NCBI GenBank assembly: GCA_021648725.1 | Contig: JAKISF010000019.1 | Span: forward strand, 1 to 63,566 | Direction: 5' to 3' | DNA length: 63,566 bases | DNA from: Bacteroidales bacterium | Lineage (GTDB): Bacteria; Bacteroidota; Bacteroidia; Bacteroidales; JAADGE01 | Shown here: positions 46,878 through 56,781 of the stretch, in pieces | Numbering within the stretch: position 1 is the stretch's first letter | Layout of the letters: each line of letters opens with the position of its first letter | Program-made: the position numbers and the translations under genes | Notes under the pieces: model-generated | Told to the model about the DNA's origin: nothing | Seen by the model: the letters and a program-made list of their open reading frames with translations, nothing else | Databases searched by the model: none

Positions 46878-49175
46878 TCATCTTTTTTTCTCAAGCCTGC
46901 CTTTTTGGCTGTAATCTGCATTTTGTTTAACAGGTGCCGGCGGTGCTATACGAATACTTTTACTTTCAGGTTGATTATAAAGTTGCGGCATTAAGTATTT
47001 ACCCCTTTCTCTGCTGTTTTTTTCAACTTCTACTATTTTTGAATCTTGATTTTGTTGTATGTATTTGTCATTTCGTTCAGCATAAAGCACCCACGAAACT
47101 TTTAAATTATTTGTACCGCCGGCAATTTTAAATTCATTATTTTTCACTTCTTCTTTAATGTATAGGTCAGCAGCCTTTCCTATTGGTGTTAAATAGTATG
47201 AATAGTTTATATTAATTGCATCAAAGTACTTCGGTAATTCAACAACTGCCTCACCGTTTTCGTCTAAAACTATATTTCCTCTGTAAATATTTAATATTTC
47301 AGGGGATTCGGCACAGAAGTGGCGAAGTTTTTTATTTTCGGGATCCAAAGGATGATCAATTGTAAATGCTTTTGTTCCCCATACAGTAAAATCACCGTTT
47401 ACTTCCATATTTCCGTTTGAATACATTGCAAGTCCGCCGTTAATAAAATCTCCCCAAACACCAACATAACCAATACCGTATGTTCCCACAGCATTTTGAG
47501 TATTATCTCCGATTGCATCAGCATTTGAACCGTAAACACCGTAACCTGCTTGGTAATTTGTTTGTCCTACAATACCGTTTACTCCTTGCCCTAAAACACC
47601 GTGACCTCCGTCAGTTCTTGTATTAACACCCATTACACCTGCTGTTCCGTTTGCTCCGTCATCAATTCTTCCGTAAACTCCTACACCAAATGCAGTTCCG
47701 GTATAATAACCTGCAACTCCGGAAGTATAATCGTTACTGCTGTTAGTTTCAGCAAAAATTGTATTATACGCATTAGCAGTACTTGTGTTATATGCATAAA
47801 TAGCTGCTCCTGTTCCGGCATTTTGAAAAGTAACAGCACTTGTCGGATTTGCAGCTGTTCCTGTACTTGATTCGGCATAAAAAGCATCAGTTCCGTTAAG
47901 GGTACTTGTTAAATATAATTCAATTGCTCCGTAATCTATATTTACTTGTCTTCCGAAACCGTTACCGCCGCAGTTATATGCTTCTTGCAATGTTACGCAA
48001 GATGCTCCTGATGCAGTTCCGGCAACCCAAGCAGAACCGTTCCATTGTAAAAAGTCATTTAAAGCAGGAGTTGCATTTACATTACTTAAATCATTTATAA
48101 TATTATTTGATAAATCGTCGGCTTCATTATCAATTGTTACATCCCAATTTATACCGTTTTCTGTTATTCTCAATAAGTCTGTTGCATCAGTCCAAGTAAA
48201 GTTTGATATTGTTGCACCACTTCCGGCATCGTCTGTTCCTGCATACCAACTGCTGCCGTCCCATTTCAAAACCTGCCCGGATACAGAGGGGATTGCATTT
48301 ACGTTACTTAAATCATTAATAATATTATTCGACAAATCGTCAGCTTCATTATCAATATTAACATCCCAATCTATACCGCCTTCCGTTATTCTTAATAAAT
48401 CTGAGCCGTCACTCCATAAGAAATTTGTAATTGTTGCACCACCTCCTATATTATCAGCATCCGCAGTCCATTGAGAACCGTTCCATTTTAAAACTTGCCC
48501 CGAAACAGGATTCGCATTTACATTACTTAAATCATTAATAATATTATCCGATAAATCATCTGCTTCGTTATCAATATTTACAGACCAATCGGTTGTACCT
48601 TCTGTTATTGTTAATAAATCAGTTGCATCAGTCCATACGAAGTTATTAATAGTTGCTCCGCCGCTTCCGGAATCATCAATCCCTGCAACCCATTGTGTAC
48701 CGTTCCATTCAAGTATTTGTCCGGCTCCGGTGGGGCTTGCATTTACATTAGATAAGTCGTTAATAAAATTATCCGATAAATCATCGGCTTCGTTATTAAT
48801 CGTGACATCCCAATTTGTTCCTTCTTCGGTTACTCTTAATAAGTTGGTTGCATCTGTCCAAGAAAATGCGGAAATTAAACCGTCAACACTTGAAGTTCCC
48901 CCCACTTGTGCCCATTGAATGCCGTCAAAAAACCAAAACCCGTCAAGACTTGTGTCATAAACCAACAAACCTGTTGCCGGGGCAACAATTGCTTGCCTTT
49001 GAGCCGAATTCATTCTGGGGATAAGAATCCCTTTATCGGTTGCTGCAACATCTAACATTGCAGAGGCATCAGGCAACATTCCTGTTGTATTAATTGAAAC
49101 ATTTTGATTTTGCGAAAAAAGTTTTCCTGAAAATAATACAAGAAAAGCAACTGTTATTAAAAGATTTCTGTTCAT
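46878..49175 (-). CDS. Surface-fibre protein with four 74-residue repeats
   Basis: 765 aa. A signal peptide (FLVLFSGKLFSQ) is followed by the same head module as its neighbour (VSINTTGMLPDASAMLDVAA, GFWFFDGIQWAQVGG). Residues about 101-392 are four repeats of 69-76 residues, each with an FxWTDATDLLRIT start, a WDVxIDNEADDLS core and a GQVLKWNGSQW end. Then come LQEAYNCGGNGFGRQVNID and a glycine-rich shaft. The C-terminus (WGTKAFTIDHPLDPENKKLR, VELPKYFDAININYSYYLTP, FKIAGGTNNLKVSWVLYAER) is a conserved end domain. It likely forms an extracellular stalk. It lies between the PorP/SprF gene and its paralogue. Confidence 0.78.
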   Translation of the reverse strand: MNRNLLITVAFLVLFSGKLFSQNQNVSINTTGMLPDASAMLDVAATDKGILIPRMNSAQRQAIVAPATGLLVYDTSLDGFWFFDGIQWAQVGGTSSVDGLISAFSWTDATNLLRVTEEGTNWDVTINNEADDLSDNFINDLSNVNASPTGAGQILEWNGTQWVAGIDDSGSGGATINNFVWTDATDLLTITEGTTDWSVNIDNEADDLSDNIINDLSNVNANPVSGQVLKWNGSQWTADADNIGGGATITNFLWSDGSDLLRITEGGIDWDVNIDNEADDLSNNIINDLSNVNAIPSVSGQVLKWDGSSWYAGTDDAGSGATISNFTWTDATDLLRITENGINWDVTIDNEADDLSNNIINDLSNVNATPALNDFLQWNGSAWVAGTASGASCVTLQEAYNCGGNGFGRQVNIDYGAIELYLTSTLNGTDAFYAESSTGTAANPTSAVTFQNAGTGAAIYAYNTSTANAYNTIFAETNSSNDYTSGVAGYYTGTAFGVGVYGRIDDGANGTAGVMGVNTRTDGGHGVLGQGVNGIVGQTNYQAGYGVYGSNADAIGDNTQNAVGTYGIGYVGVWGDFINGGLAMYSNGNMEVNGDFTVWGTKAFTIDHPLDPENKKLRHFCAESPEILNIYRGNIVLDENGEAVVELPKYFDAININYSYYLTPIGKAADLYIKEEVKNNEFKIAGGTNNLKVSWVLYAERNDKYIQQNQDSKIVEVEKNSRERGKYLMPQLYNQPESKSIRIAPPAPVKQNADYSQKGRLEKKR
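48000..48875 (-). repeat. Four tandem protein-coding repeats of about 220 bp
   Basis: Within the gene above, residues 101-176, 177-249, 250-323 and 324-392 are near-copies. All four hold a NEADDLS core and an INDLSNVNA segment. The repeats differ by small length changes at the end, so the array arose by duplication followed by drift. Confidence 0.85.
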
Positions 49176-52804: not shown

Positions 52805-53416
52805 TTATTTTTCAATTTTATTAAAAGCATTTCTTGCTCTTTCACAAGCATCACAAAAACCCCTTGAACTGATAGTTGCAGCCGTAATTGCATCAATGGT
52901 TCCTTGGTCTTTTGTAACTTCTATAAGAATACCGTCACCGTCTGTATCTTTTATTTCAGAAATGTTTAAGTTTGTAAATTGTTCGCTCCAATCGCTTTTA
53001 TTTTTCTGCATTTTATCCCCTAAACCCGGAGTTTCATGGTGCTCAAGAACTGCTGTTTTATATATTTTCCCGTCAGGCGTAAAACCTACCATAATCCAAA
53101 ATTCGCCGCTGAAACCTTTATTTGTATTTGCTTTAATTGCATATCCGCATATTTTTCCGTCTTTTTTTGTAGGATAACATTCAAGACTGTCACTTTCTGA
53201 CAATGCTATTTTGAACATATTGGAAATAGGATCAAATATTGTATCAAATTCGGGAAGAACTTGTCCTATTGCACTTTTTTTCTTCTCAAGTTTTGCTTTT
53301 GCAATAGGTTCTTTTGTTGCTTGATAAACAAATGCTAAAACTGTGGCTGCAACTGCTGATACAATGAACAACACAACGACCATATTTACAAATGATGATT
53401 TCTTTTTAGATGCCAT
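52805..53416 (-). CDS. rnfG: Ion-translocating oxidoreductase complex subunit RnfG
   Basis: 203 aa. One N-terminal helix (FVNMVVVLFIVSAVAATVLA) anchors a periplasmic FMN-binding domain (GFSGEFWIMVGFTPDGKI, VLEHHETPGLGDKM). The flavinylation motif near residue 180 reads ITAATISSRG; the flavin-accepting Thr is present, but the Gly of the textbook SGAT form is Ala. FMN should be linked covalently through a phosphoester by ApbE, which is not encoded in the window. A 242-nt gap holding an 11-bp array separates it from rnfD. Confidence 0.95.
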   Translation of the reverse strand: MASKKKSSFVNMVVVLFIVSAVAATVLAFVYQATKEPIAKAKLEKKKSAIGQVLPEFDTIFDPISNMFKIALSESDSLECYPTKKDGKICGYAIKANTNKGFSGEFWIMVGFTPDGKIYKTAVLEHHETPGLGDKMQKNKSDWSEQFTNLNISEIKDTDGDGILIEVTKDQGTIDAITAATISSRGFCDACERARNAFNKIEK

Positions 53417-53459
53417 TTCAATTGATTATTTTATAATGACTAATGATTATTTATTTAAA

Positions 53460-53661
53460 TTTTCCTTTAAAAGTTCAAATGTTGTTAAAAAATTGTCATG
53501 TGTTGTCATAGTGGTCAAGTAATGGTATTTATTTAATAATTTTTAACTGCTTTTTGACCATCTTTAAATCACTTTGCAACTATTATTTGACCATTTCTTA
53601 TACTACTTTTGACTATTATTTTAACTATCTTTTAACCATTGTTTGACTATAATTTTAACTA
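53460..53661 (-). repeat. 11-bp degenerate array plus inverted arm between rnfD and rnfG (gene-less copy)
   Basis: Read on the coding (minus) strand from the rnfD stop, about eleven units follow at an 11-bp pitch, for example ATAGTCAAACA, ATGGTTAAAAG, ATAGTTAAAAT, ATAGTCAAAAG and ATGGTCAAATA (53661 down to about 53540). After a short AT spacer the motif turns round (CTTGACCACTA, TGACAACACA, TGACAATTTT, TTAACAACAT; about 53520-53470). The arms can pair, so the transcript could form a long imperfect hairpin. The first unit contains the TAG stop of rnfD (53659-53661). Confidence 0.75.
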
Positions 53662-54666
53662 TTTACTTTTAATTTTTTCTCCGAACCGTTTCGGTTTCAT
53701 ATACATATTTATTATCGGTACAAATGCATTCATAATTAAAATTGCAAATGAAACACCTTCCGGAAATGCTCCCCAAATTCTTATAACAATGGTTAAAATT
53801 CCGATACCGACTCCATATATTAACATTCCGCTTTTGCTCATGGGTGATGTTACATAATCTGTTGCCATAAAAATAGCACCGAGTAAAATCCCTCCGGTTA
53901 ATAAATGAAACACAGGATCTGCAAATTTATCAGGGTTTATACCCCAAAGAATAGCTGTAAAAATTGCAACTGTTCCCAGAATTGAAATCGGAATATGCCA
54001 AGTAATGATTTTTCTCCACAACATATACAATAATCCGATAATTAATCCTAAAGCTGCAACTTCACCGAATGAACCGCCCATATTACCGTACAGCATATCC
54101 ATATAATCGGGAACTTTTTCGCTGATTTTGGTCATACTGTCTCCGTTTCTCATAAATTCAGCGAGATGTCCGAGAGGAGTTGCCCCTGTTGTAACATCGG
54201 TATAGCCTAACATTTTTTCTGTAATTACACTTGGCTTAGGCCAGGTTGTCATTTGTACGGGCCATGAAATTAATAGAAAAACACGACCTACCAACGCCGG
54301 GTTAAAAGGGTTGTTTCCTAATCCGCCGAATGACATTTTACCGATTGCAATCGCAACAAAAGCACCTATAATTACCAACCAAACGGGCAAACTACTCGGC
54401 AAGTTAAATGCTAATAATAAGCCGGTTAATGCAGCGGAACCGTCCATCACGGTTGATTCTCTTTTTAAAATGTATTTTGTAATCAAATATTCAAATAAAA
54501 CGGATGAAATTACTGCCGAAGCAATCACGATAATTGCACCTAATCCGAAAAAATATACCGAAAACAGTAAAGTCGGAATTAATGCAATTAACACACCGTA
54601 CATTAATTTCTTAACGGAATTTGTTCCGAGCTGATGCGGTGATAATGAGACTATTAGTTTAGACAT
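53659..54666 (-). CDS. rnfD: Ion-translocating oxidoreductase complex subunit RnfD
   Basis: 335 aa, about nine or ten helices. HQLGTNSVKKLMYGVLIALI is the typical start. The second covalent-FMN motif is TTGATPLGHL near residue 160, with the accepting Thr. GSFGEVAALGLIIGLLYMLW and ILLGAIFMATDYVTSPMSKS are conserved. It is separated from rnfC by 780 nt that hold a four-helix-bundle gene and two repeat arrays; Rnf genes normally abut, so this spacing is abnormal. Its stop codon lies in the first unit of the next array. Confidence 0.97.
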   Translation of the reverse strand: MSKLIVSLSPHQLGTNSVKKLMYGVLIALIPTLLFSVYFFGLGAIIVIASAVISSVLFEYLITKYILKRESTVMDGSAALTGLLLAFNLPSSLPVWLVIIGAFVAIAIGKMSFGGLGNNPFNPALVGRVFLLISWPVQMTTWPKPSVITEKMLGYTDVTTGATPLGHLAEFMRNGDSMTKISEKVPDYMDMLYGNMGGSFGEVAALGLIIGLLYMLWRKIITWHIPISILGTVAIFTAILWGINPDKFADPVFHLLTGGILLGAIFMATDYVTSPMSKSGMLIYGVGIGILTIVIRIWGAFPEGVSFAILIMNAFVPIINMYMKPKRFGEKIKSK

Positions 54667-54713
54667 GTTCTATCTATTTTTAATATTTTTTATTTGTTAC
54701 TCTATTGTTATTA

Positions 54714-54962
54714 ATTAATTGTTAAATGTTGTCATGTTTGGTCAAATATTGTTAAAATAATTGTTGTGTATTGCAGAAGTTGATTAAGTATTGTCAAGAA
54801 ATCAAGATTTGCATTGTAAACCATCAACCACCTTTGACCATCTTTTAACTATTTTTTGACTATCCTTTCAACTATCTTTGACATTTTCTTCATTTTTTCA
54901 AACTATCATTTAGCAATTATTTAACTATTATTTGACCATTTTTAAAACTATCTTTGACTATT
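54714..54962 (-). repeat. 11-bp degenerate array plus inverted arm between the four-helix-bundle gene and rnfD
   Basis: Coding-strand units from 54962 down to about 54822 include AATAGTCAAAG, ATGGTCAAATA, ATAGTTAAATA, ATTGCTAAATG, ATAGTCAAAAA, ATAGTTAAAAG and ATGGTCAAAGG: about twelve copies, mostly at 11-bp pitch. A spacer (about 54821-54800) is followed by the inverted form (TTTAACAATA, TTTGACCAAA, ATGACAACA, TTTAACAATT; about 54760-54714). The first unit supplies the TAG stop of the four-helix-bundle gene. The layout matches the array between rnfD and rnfG. Confidence 0.78.
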
Positions 54963-55311
54963 TCTTCCCTATTGACTTTATATAATTATTAAGTTTAACA
55001 CTTAAGGATGTTAATTCATTTTTGTATTCTAAAAATCTCTCTTCATTTATTAACTTCCTATTCTTTGCTTTGGTTAACCACGTATAAGTTTCATTTAAAG
55101 AACCTCTTGAGTAATAATTAAACAACTTATTTGACTTATAATGAAACCTCCCATGCCCTTCACTTATATTTGCTGCAATTGAATCTGCTGATCTGATTAA
55201 TTGTTTTCCGATTGTATCTTTTGAAAAATCATTCCATTTCATTATGTCTTTATATACTTTTTCAGCAACTTCCATCGCAATACTGTACACTTTTAAATCA
55301 TCAATAAACAT
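54958..55311 (-). CDS. Four-helix-bundle protein (S23/IVP, Avd-like)
   Basis: 117 aa from ATG 55311 (an in-frame TTG at 55329 is possible). Family signatures are clear: DDLKVYSIAMEVAEKVY at the start, QLIRSADSIAANISEGHGR near residue 45, NYYSRGSLNETYTWLTKAKN near 70, and a final long helix (FLEYKNELTSLSVKLNNYIK). Proteins of this family are encoded in intervening sequences of 23S rRNA, and the diversity-generating-retroelement accessory protein Avd has the same fold; they form basic pentamers that bind nucleic acid. No reverse transcriptase or rRNA is here. It interrupts the Rnf operon between rnfC and rnfD, in the same direction, flanked on both sides by 11-bp arrays, so it is almost certainly an insertion. 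Confidence 0.9.
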   Translation of the reverse strand: MFIDDLKVYSIAMEVAEKVYKDIMKWNDFSKDTIGKQLIRSADSIAANISEGHGRFHYKSNKLFNYYSRGSLNETYTWLTKAKNRKLINEERFLEYKNELTSLSVKLNNYIKSIGKK

Positions 55312-55341
55312 AATATTCCTATTTTTCAACTAATATACTGA

Positions 55342-55438
55342 TTCTGACAACCTTTCAAAAATCTTTGACCACCCTTTAACTATCTTTTGACCTTTTAAAA
55401 ACAACCTTTGACCACCTTTTAACTATCTTTTCAACAAC
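55342..55438 (-). repeat. 11-bp degenerate array between rnfC and the four-helix-bundle gene
   Basis: Coding-strand units, starting nine bases after the rnfC stop: TTGTTGAAAAG, ATAGTTAAAAG, GTGGTCAAAGG, TTGTTTTTAAAA, GGTCAAAAG, ATAGTTAAAGG, GTGGTCAAAGA, TTTTTGAAAGG, TTGTCAGAATC. Seven of nine are within a base of 11 bp. The TT-type and TC-type units tend to alternate, giving a 22-bp higher-order period. No inverted arm is present on this side. Confidence 0.78.
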
Positions 55439-55446
55439 ATAATTTC

Positions 55447-56781
55447 TTACTTCATACTTCTTGCACGTCTTAATGCTCCTACTTGGTTTTTTCCTAATCT
55501 TATATAATCCAATAATGGTCTGTCTGACGGACATACATAACTGCAAGAGCCACATTCGATACAATCCATGACATCTTCTTTTTCTGATCTTTCAATTAAT
55601 GCTTTTTCAGCAACTGTCATCAGCAAGAAAGGTTCTAATCCCATCGGGCAAACTTCAACACATTTTGCACATCTTATACATGGTTTAAATGCTCTTCTTT
55701 TCGACTCATCTTTCGGCATAATTAATATACCAGAAGTTCCTTTTGCAACAGGAACATCTGTTGTATTAAGAGCTTTTCCCATCATGGGGCCTCCGCTGAT
55801 AATTTTTCCTGTATCTTCGGGCAAACCTCCTGATGCTTCAATTAAATCCTTTACCGGAGTGCCGAATCTTACAAGATAATTACCGGGATTTTTTACAGAT
55901 TTTCCGGTAATTGTTACAACACGTTCAATTAACGGCTTATTTTTTTGAACTGCTTCATATACAGCATAGGCTGTTCCTACATTATGGACTACGGCCTCTA
56001 CTGCAATAGGTAAACCTCCCGAAGGAACTTCTCTGCCCGTAACAGCTTTTATTAATTGTTTTTCTCCTCCTTGCGGATATTGAACTTTTAACGGAACAAC
56101 AGTTATTCCTTTATAATCTTTTAATAAGCTGTTAAGATGAGAAATTGCATCAGATTTATTATTTTCAATTCCGATTATTGCCTTATCAACTTTTAAGGCT
56201 TTCATTAAAATTTCTGTTCCGACAAGCATTTCTTTGCCTTTCTCCAACATTAATCTGTGATCAGACGTAAGATACGGTTCACATTCAACACCGTTGATAA
56301 TCAGAATTTCTGCTTTTGTTCCTTTCGGCGGCATTAATTTAACATGAGAAGGAAAAGTTGCTCCTCCTAAACCTACAACACCTGCTTCTTGAACTTTTTT
56401 AATAATTTCTTCCGAACTATAGTTAAAGTCTTTTATAAAATCTTCGCTTCTGTCAATTTTCTCATCCCATTCATCTCCTTCAACATTAATTATTACGGCT
56501 TGTTTTTTATATCCGCTTGTATCTATAACAGCATCAACTTTAAAAACCTTGCCTGAAACCGAAGAATGAATATTTGCTGACACAAAACCACCTTGCTCTG
56601 CTATTACTTGTCCGACTTTTACAATATCTCCTTTCTTTACCGAAACTTTTGCAGGTGCCCCGATATGTTGAGACACAGGAATACTTACTTGCTTCGGGAT
56701 TGCTAAAACCTCAATTTTTTTATCTGCCGATAATTTGTTTTCGGGAGGATGAATGCCTCCTTTCGGGAATGTTTTTAACAT
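55447..56781 (-). CDS. rnfC: Ion-translocating oxidoreductase complex subunit RnfC
   Basis: 444 aa. The N-terminus TFPKGGIHPPENKLSADK is the family signature. The FMN/NADH-binding core has VVGLGGATFPSHVKLMPPKG and ILIINGVECEPYLTSDHRLM. Two 4Fe-4S motifs follow near the end: CIRCAKCVEVCPMGLEPF and CIECGSCSYVCPSDRPL. It passes electrons between RnfB's clusters and NAD+ at the cytosolic face. It begins 21 nt after the rnfB stop. Immediately after its stop the first repeat array begins. Confidence 0.97.
   Translation of the reverse strand: MLKTFPKGGIHPPENKLSADKKIEVLAIPKQVSIPVSQHIGAPAKVSVKKGDIVKVGQVIAEQGGFVSANIHSSVSGKVFKVDAVIDTSGYKKQAVIINVEGDEWDEKIDRSEDFIKDFNYSSEEIIKKVQEAGVVGLGGATFPSHVKLMPPKGTKAEILIINGVECEPYLTSDHRLMLEKGKEMLVGTEILMKALKVDKAIIGIENNKSDAISHLNSLLKDYKGITVVPLKVQYPQGGEKQLIKAVTGREVPSGGLPIAVEAVVHNVGTAYAVYEAVQKNKPLIERVVTITGKSVKNPGNYLVRFGTPVKDLIEASGGLPEDTGKIISGGPMMGKALNTTDVPVAKGTSGILIMPKDESKRRAFKPCIRCAKCVEVCPMGLEPFLLMTVAEKALIERSEKEDVMDCIECGSCSYVCPSDRPLLDYIRLGKNQVGALRRARSMK

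Follow-up and report, generated by a model that had tools for sequence, protein, structure and literature searches.

Among described systems, the intervening sequence (IVS) of Coxiella carries an S23 gene and terminal inverted repeats, is excised by RNase III and displays two or three tandem heptamers directly before the S23 start; its authors considered that the S23 protein was probably not produced in vivo, and IVS with an S23 ORF were also named for Leptospira and others (PMC4990558). No function is known for the S23 proteins, which numerous genomes encode, while the heptanucleotide arrays found in spacers were previously without a partner gene. Cyanobacterial STRR sequences are arrays of this kind, composed of 7-bp tandem units and located in operon spacers. 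Arrays of TAACTGA were described by MacGregor 2015 in Beggiatoaceae, Cyanobacteria and Bacteroidetes, with no evident transfer mechanism and a proposal to search for a binding protein; heptanucleotide arrays were considered frequent in some genomes and slippage was proposed as their origin (PMC4679880). The consulted part of that text named no S23 or four-helix partner for TAACTGA arrays. Spacer repeats listed for a Nostoc operon included 7-nt units by eye and occurred 44 and 61 times in that genome (PMC2408588). Within the open-access PMC literature, no paper was recognised that connects arrays to an adjacent S23 or four-helix-bundle gene.

The stretch analysed here, hereafter the window, comprises 63,566 nucleotides of contig JAKISF010000019.1 from a Bacteroidales genome (GCA_021648725.1). 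A spacer of 780 nt separated the rnfC stop from the rnfD start and contained an S23 (four-helix-bundle) gene at 54958..55311 on the minus strand (117 codons from ATG, with an alternative TTG start at 55329). The S23-type gene that a sequence-only reading had placed in this expanded junction was confirmed, as its protein matched PF05635 (E 3.3e-26, 92 bits, for a curated cut-off of 33.8) and also TIGR02436 four helix bundle. The neighbours, all on the minus strand and identified with NCBIfam profiles, were rnfC upstream (55447..56781; TIGR01945, E 6.5e-174), rnfD downstream (53659..54666; TIGR01946, E 3e-116) and rnfG, next in the operon after rnfD (52805..53416; TIGR01947, E 1.2e-46). Apart from S23, the rnfC-rnfD spacer displayed no ORF above 62 aa, and hence encoded no transposase. 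A known RNA family was ruled out for the insertion, since the Rfam scan of positions 53300-55500 gave nothing above gathering score and a single sub-threshold match (E 0.4). Two further S23 genes, overlooked in the sequence-only reading, were found at other junctions of the same genome, where they were flanked by 7-bp arrays with units particular to each.

The spacers around S23 and rnfD were AT-rich and harbored degenerate arrays of an 11-nt unit, RTRGTYAAARG in the sense orientation. Array 1, the upstream arm between rnfC and S23, covered 55330..55446 on the minus strand. Array 2, between S23 and rnfD, consisted of a sense part at 54824..54957 (minus strand, found by TRF) and an inverted part at 54715..54800 (plus strand, three antisense cores), while array 3, located between rnfD and rnfG without an S23 gene of its own, displayed a sense part at 53543..53658 (minus strand) and an inverted part at 53465..53520 (plus strand, one antisense core). 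The ends of both inverted parts were set by eye, and these inverted unit copies had so far gone unnoticed. Sense cores (GTYAAA/GTYRAA, defined only after the arrays had been seen) numbered six, eight and seven in the three successive spacers, for shuffled means of 1.1, 0.9 and 0.8 (p 0.002, 0.001 and 0.001), which upheld the claim of degenerate 11-bp arrays on both sides of S23 and of a third one after rnfD. All 18 core-to-core gaps were of 10-12, 21-22 or 32-33 nt, and self-matching peaked at lag 11 in all three spacers (0.46-0.48); with this lag, the window arrays fall outside the 7-bp, STRR-like class. In a more general array test restricted to 150-nt flanks, the upstream array gave p 0.17 and the downstream one, at lag 11, p 0.005. 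A two-unit pattern, likewise written from the window arrays, matched five times in the 3.2-Mb genome, always within 53620-55427, and its reversed control did not match at all. The exact pattern being absent elsewhere in the genome, the 11-bp unit looks confined to the rnf operon.

Fourteen genomes of the genus were considered, of which 13 had rnfC. In 11 of these 13, the rnfC-rnfD spacer was plain, 27-91 nt long and without S23 (for genome G010, 29 nt according to the ORF caller and 53 nt according to the rnfD motif), while the window's genome and G013 had both S23 and arrays there. The comparison of junctions proposed earlier thus did uncover empty sites, and the objection that all relatives might share the insertion failed. 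The rnfD-rnfG spacer of G010 displayed, by eye, an array of related units, with no S23 in that stretch of the operon. The S23 proteins of the window and G013 were 77% identical (dN 0.15; dS 2.3, saturated). Upstream and downstream spacers paired strongly in G013 (duplex of -130 kcal/mol, z -12.7; alignment p 0.003, the floor) and only weakly in the window (-44 kcal/mol, z -3.0), where local alignment gave p 0.18 for whole spacers and p 0.60 for 150-nt flanks. This difference suggests decay or rearrangement of the copy in the window. Taken singly, its S23 spacers folded no better than shuffles (z 0.1 upstream, -0.5 downstream), and the rnfD-rnfG spacer folded weakly on itself (z -1.8, p 0.05).

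S23 matches were encountered in at least 45 of 60 relatives. From the matches listed, 62 at 60 loci were chosen, mostly away from contig ends; the three S23 genes of the window's own genome brought the set to 65, of which 62 were usable. Most S23 genes were preceded by a tandem array, usually of 7-bp units, and followed by its reverse complement: flanks were complementary at p<=0.01 in 43 of the 62 loci, a level not reached in the other 19, and 51 of 62 had an array in one or both flanks. Ten further S23 loci gave comparable results (6/10 complementary, 10/10 with an array). Control genes from the same stretches were complementary in 9 of 125 cases and had arrays in 17, those with wider spacers in 6 and 13 of 62, respectively; the control genes that scored positive included three GxxExxY genes (also matching PF13366) and, by eye, one S23. 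PIN-domain controls from the same genome set gave 1/30 and 3/30. Shuffles mostly numbered 60 to 300 per test, which sets the floor of p, and p values were uncorrected for the number of tests; permutations were 5000 for the fad-like site and 1000 for the unit-protein test and the core counts (see below for the former two).

Similar proportions were found in named species-level genomes, where 55 of 76 S23 loci were complementary, 49 had an array and 63 displayed either signal. They came from the 79 top-ranking loci among at least 587, collected with a query of ten S23 proteins (an alignment of 45 proved too diverse), so that they are biased towards the S23 of one site, a fadB-fadA-like junction (names by eye). 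The linkage of four-helix-bundle genes to arrays beyond chance, as had been anticipated, is therefore general (43/62 and 55/76 versus 9/125 and 1/30). The lag was seven in 70 of the 75 significant arrays from named genomes; the earlier suggestion that an 11-bp pitch would align repeated sites on one DNA face was consequently not borne out as a rule. Viral contigs displayed complementarity in 31 and arrays in 39 of their 45 S23 loci. S23 matches were also found in 43 plasmid records; five loci were examined, all cyanobacterial, and every one carried an array in one or both flanks, with the flanks complementary at p<=0.04. Genes of the GxxExxY family (PF13366) were bracketed by complementary arms at 15 of 30 loci, with significant tandem arrays at eight.

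Within 300 nt of the 65 S23 genes, 58 arrays were detected at 41 loci, that is ~149 per 100 kb. The background, ~800 kb from three genomes of the genus without S23 or GxxExxY genes in profile searches, yielded 11 arrays (1.4 per 100 kb), including six in intergenic sequence (0.75 per 100 kb); these 11 were not all heptads. Density near S23 genes was accordingly 100-200 times that of the background, in agreement with the expectation that arrays lie within 300 bp of such genes more often than by chance, and when ~0.86 Mb of sampled sequence was dinucleotide-shuffled, once per stretch, a single array resulted in total. Arrays in genomes without any four-helix-bundle gene had been named as evidence against the link. 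One clear heptad array was indeed present in G007, which had no S23 among the matches listed, so that solo arrays exist, which speaks in part against that interpretation. Plasmid pNe_5 of Nostoc edaphicum harbored 34 arrays, 23 of them of lag 7; six (lag 7 or 8) were located within 34 nt of S23 and bracketed all three S23 genes, and several others were composed of the same units without S23. A universal rule of AG every 7 nt was discarded, as its excess was only mild (123 of 179 arrays, 91 being expected by letter permutation).

On average, arms paired better within a locus than between loci. Arm-to-arm RNA duplexes at 62 loci had a median z of -3.0, versus -0.36 for 62 swapped pairs. At 20 fadA-like loci, picked by the start motif of the next gene (gene name by eye), units differed and yet the fit of each arm to its own partner averaged 16.2, versus 10.6 for permuted partners (p 0.0002); the own pair exceeded the 95th percentile of cross-pairs in four loci and was the best of its row in seven. 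Arms at one site thus change in concert. Since arrays mostly form complementary arm pairs, their common feature is pairing rather than one repeated site; strict recognition of a single shared unit was discarded, units varying among loci. Polarity was also apparent: on the coding strand, G prevailed over C in upstream arms and C over G in downstream arms (GC skew above zero in 84 of 110 upstream arrays and below zero in 89 of 105 downstream arrays). Both flanking genes shared the direction of S23 in 56 of 61 cases; for other genes, the figure was 187 of 266. On cyanobacterial plasmids, S23 opposed both neighbours at two of five loci (Stanieria and Nostoc edaphicum), so that it is not transcribed together with them in every case.

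Units tracked the protein at unrelated sites, which is the best evidence for joint movement of arm and gene. Among 126 lag-7 loci, only pairs without common neighbour genes were considered, and unit similarity rose with S23 identity, from z of ~0.1 or less below 45% to 0.9 at 55-70% (110 pairs) and 2.35 above 70% (28 pairs). The correlation was r 0.11 (permutation p 0.001, the floor) and r 0.20 (p 0.001) for GC differences below 5%, in a sample with some same-genus pairs, near-identical viral contigs kept separate and a few short contigs that may conceal a common neighbour. Some close S23 pairs carried dissimilar units. Because similar S23 at unrelated sites have similar units, the protein and its arms appear to be passed on jointly, and the sequences suggest a single mobile unit of arm and gene. 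In 15 genomes, the closest pair of sampled S23 was 26-57% identical, the 16th having a 99% tandem pair, and 60 of 65 S23 had their best match in a genome other than their own; the sampled S23 of these 16 genomes gave no sign of a recent copy at a new site. From the low identity within genomes and the best matches elsewhere, S23 elements seem to spread by passing from one genome to another and not in bursts. At any one operon junction, genomes either had the whole insert or lacked it, as observed in the two usable sequence-level comparisons out of three attempted. Genome G004 had an S23 element at a site where its sister G003 (flanks 87-90% identical) displayed ~260 nt with neither S23 nor heptads by eye, and G010 also had S23 at that site; an insert of ~490 nt in G003 corresponded to 36 nt in G001. 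The idea of a helper protein with its repeats, put forward for the window, stood in part: array unit and S23 were co-inherited, as expected of a helper with cognate repeats or of a unit moving whole, but the 11-bp unit itself looks confined to the rnf operon.

The S23 protein of the window was modelled by AlphaFold2 as four helices (pLDDT 94.8). Foldseek related the model to the S23 structures 2gsc and 2rld (TM 0.78-0.85) and, with TM 0.66-0.73 and E 0.03 or weaker, to Avd chains of 4dwl and to DGR RNP entries, so that the kinship with Avd claimed earlier is supported at the level of the fold. The genome's two other S23 proteins weakly matched the Avd PHROG (E 1e-5 and 4e-3); the window's own did not. 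Avd is a partner of the DGR reverse transcriptase and is present in RNP structures; by analogy, the modelled fold suggests that S23 binds nucleic acid. To judge from dN, which was far under dS in six of six pairs, S23 is conserved as a protein. No RVT_1 gene was found on the window's contig, the only match of the genome being on another one. In a survey covering the PF00078 family, RVT_1 was absent in 30 of 60 relatives, including the S23-rich G002, G005, G009 (77% complete) and G011, with at least nine, eight, ten and six S23 matches, respectively; a PF00078 reverse transcriptase acting in trans therefore does not look required. A defence system was discarded, since PADLOC gave nothing for the window protein and otherwise marginal matches (E 0.003-0.01) to unrelated families.

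S23 genes are usually located between two tandem arms, one the reverse complement of the other, with a locus-specific unit of usually 7 bp. We give even chances to the reading that the window insertion is one copy of a widespread IVS-like element residing in spacers of protein operons, with arms pairing around S23. In its favour are the frequency of complementary arms and their duplex energies, the concerted change of arms, the empty sites, the agreement of unit and protein, the shared direction of S23 and its neighbours, the low dN and the features of the Coxiella IVS. Against it stand the weak pairing in the window copy, the 19 of 62 loci below that level of complementarity, the view that Coxiella probably makes no S23 protein, the low identity of sampled S23 copies within genomes and the two plasmid loci where S23 opposes both neighbours. 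In the operon transcript, the arms would pair as a long imperfect stem closing around the S23 gene; RNase III might then cut the insert from the host message, by analogy with IVS, or folding might sequester it, and either outcome would keep its cost to the operon low. S23, as a relative of Avd, would bind its own kind of arm and aid persistence or movement of the element. The rnfD-rnfG array could have arisen when an arm spread locally, or when a copy lost its S23 gene. The IVS of 23S rRNA would most simply be regarded as an instance of a wider element that has settled in rRNA.

A repeat-plus-helper arrangement acting on DNA is known from REP elements, single palindromes accompanied by the RAYT transposase. 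A comparable unit, whose hairpins would form in single-stranded DNA at replication forks, be bound by S23 and be moved by an enzyme of the host or in trans, with RNA pairing as an incidental property, seems rather unlikely here. Complementary arms could equally make such hairpins, protein and unit reach unrelated sites together, elements are present or absent at operon junctions, and in Stanieria and Nostoc edaphicum S23 opposes both neighbours. However, polarity is fixed relative to the gene (84/110 and 89/105) and S23 is co-directed with both neighbours in 56 of 61 cases, which fits transcription better, and no transposase is encoded in the rnfC-rnfD spacer of the window.

It is improbable that S23 serves the host as an operon regulator, binding arrays in mRNA and tuning translation or stability of flanking genes: its patchiness in close relatives (two of 13 rnf junctions), the great diversity of host operons and the separate unit at each site speak against it, although arrays directly precede start codons in operon spacers, dN is far under dS and a then unknown protein binding TAACTGA arrays was discussed by MacGregor 2015 (PMC4679880). 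We attach an equally low probability to a mutational by-product, in which polymerase slippage at hairpins would enlarge arrays, quasi-palindrome correction would match the arms and S23 would be a passenger. Heptanucleotide arrays are frequent in some genomes and a slippage origin was proposed (PMC4679880), unit sequence varies freely and solo arrays occur; against this, arrays reach ~149 per 100 kb near S23 versus 0.75-1.4 in the background, units track the relatedness of S23 and the latter appears conserved as a protein. That AT-rich spacers merely look repetitive by chance is practically excluded: the window spacers are AT-rich and some single flanks were not significant, but gene and genome controls, together with the single array from ~0.86 Mb of shuffled sequence, refute it.

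S23 elements could, with about equal chances for and against, constitute a large and hitherto undescribed mobile class in Bacteroidota, Cyanobacteria and other groups, composed of a cargo, S23 or its sister form GxxExxY, between complementary tandem-repeat arms with lineage-specific units; many orphan heptanucleotide arrays, those of cyanobacterial STRR type among them, would then be solo arms that such elements left behind. S23 is a candidate partner for TAACTGA-like heptanucleotide arrays. Linkage, paired arms and the match between unit and lineage would provide S23 proteins and heptanucleotide arrays with one explanation and, if the element moves, would reveal a mobile design whose ends change freely while complementarity alone is retained.

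In comparison with known systems, the S23 elements resemble the IVS of Coxiella in having an S23 gene, at most loci between inverted repeats, and heptamers near the gene; in the window copy, whose unit is of 11 bp, the arms pair weakly. In contrast to 23S rRNA IVS, they reside in spacers of protein operons, between rnfC and rnfD for the window copy, their arms are tandem arrays, and several differing copies occur per genome. They share the fold of Avd with diversity-generating retroelements, from which they differ by the absence of an RVT_1 gene on the window's contig. The idea of a repeat with its helper is common to REP/RAYT, but the window copy has no ORF of transposase size and arrays replace the single palindromes. 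GxxExxY (PDDEXK_3, PF13366) genes are likewise bracketed by complementary arms; they belong to an unrelated family, nuclease-like by its name, and their units are mostly longer than 7 nt by eye. As for TAACTGA and STRR arrays, those of S23 elements are usually 7 bp in unit length and located in operon spacers, from which the window departs by its units of 11 bp.

GxxExxY genes (PDDEXK_3, PF13366) formed a second cargo family, sharing its architecture with the S23 (PF05635) elements. Complementary arms surrounded these genes in 15 of 30 loci (L114-L143), and ACAGAGTTAC and similar units, as judged by eye, were frequent in the arms. Further GxxExxY genes of this architecture were located, in the coordinates of the oriented loci, at L038:2250-2639, L039:2309-2695 and L084:7480-7851. 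In many of the Bacteroidota loci seen, the same fadB-fadA-acyl-CoA dehydrogenase-like operon had one or two of its junctions occupied by an S23 or GxxExxY insertion, with a cargo varying from species to species (loci L001, L038, L039, L044, L049 and L058 together with those of named genomes; gene names assigned by eye).

One whole element was also found duplicated. In the relative's genome G047, two S23 genes 539 bp apart (L089:4025-4905) were 99% identical and their flanking sequences were likewise repeated, which identifies the pair as a tandem duplication of the entire element.

Arrays also occurred on their own. The 265 kb of the Nostoc edaphicum plasmid pNe_5 (L392-L397) held 34 short tandem arrays; units of the S23 arms were encountered again as solo arrays at other plasmid positions, and some recurring units formed inverted pairs with no listed S23 gene in between. 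Genome G007, which had neither an S23 nor a GxxExxY match, displayed an array of a 7-bp unit (L335:1725-1796) flanked by two divergent ORFs. Other repeats were observed as well. One of ~35 bp, at about L052:5257-5297, matched G003 and G010 dozens of times, on both strands, and is therefore palindromic. The top-scoring TRF row in the window was a 222-bp tandem repeat of 2.5 copies (48065-48620).

A published case appears to resemble these insertions. The phage-element table of PMC5524665 includes, for two strains of Flavobacterium columnare, a four helix bundle gene, its neighbours there being guanylate kinase and nicotinate-nucleotide adenylyltransferase genes; from these entries, it looks like an operon insertion of the S23 kind.
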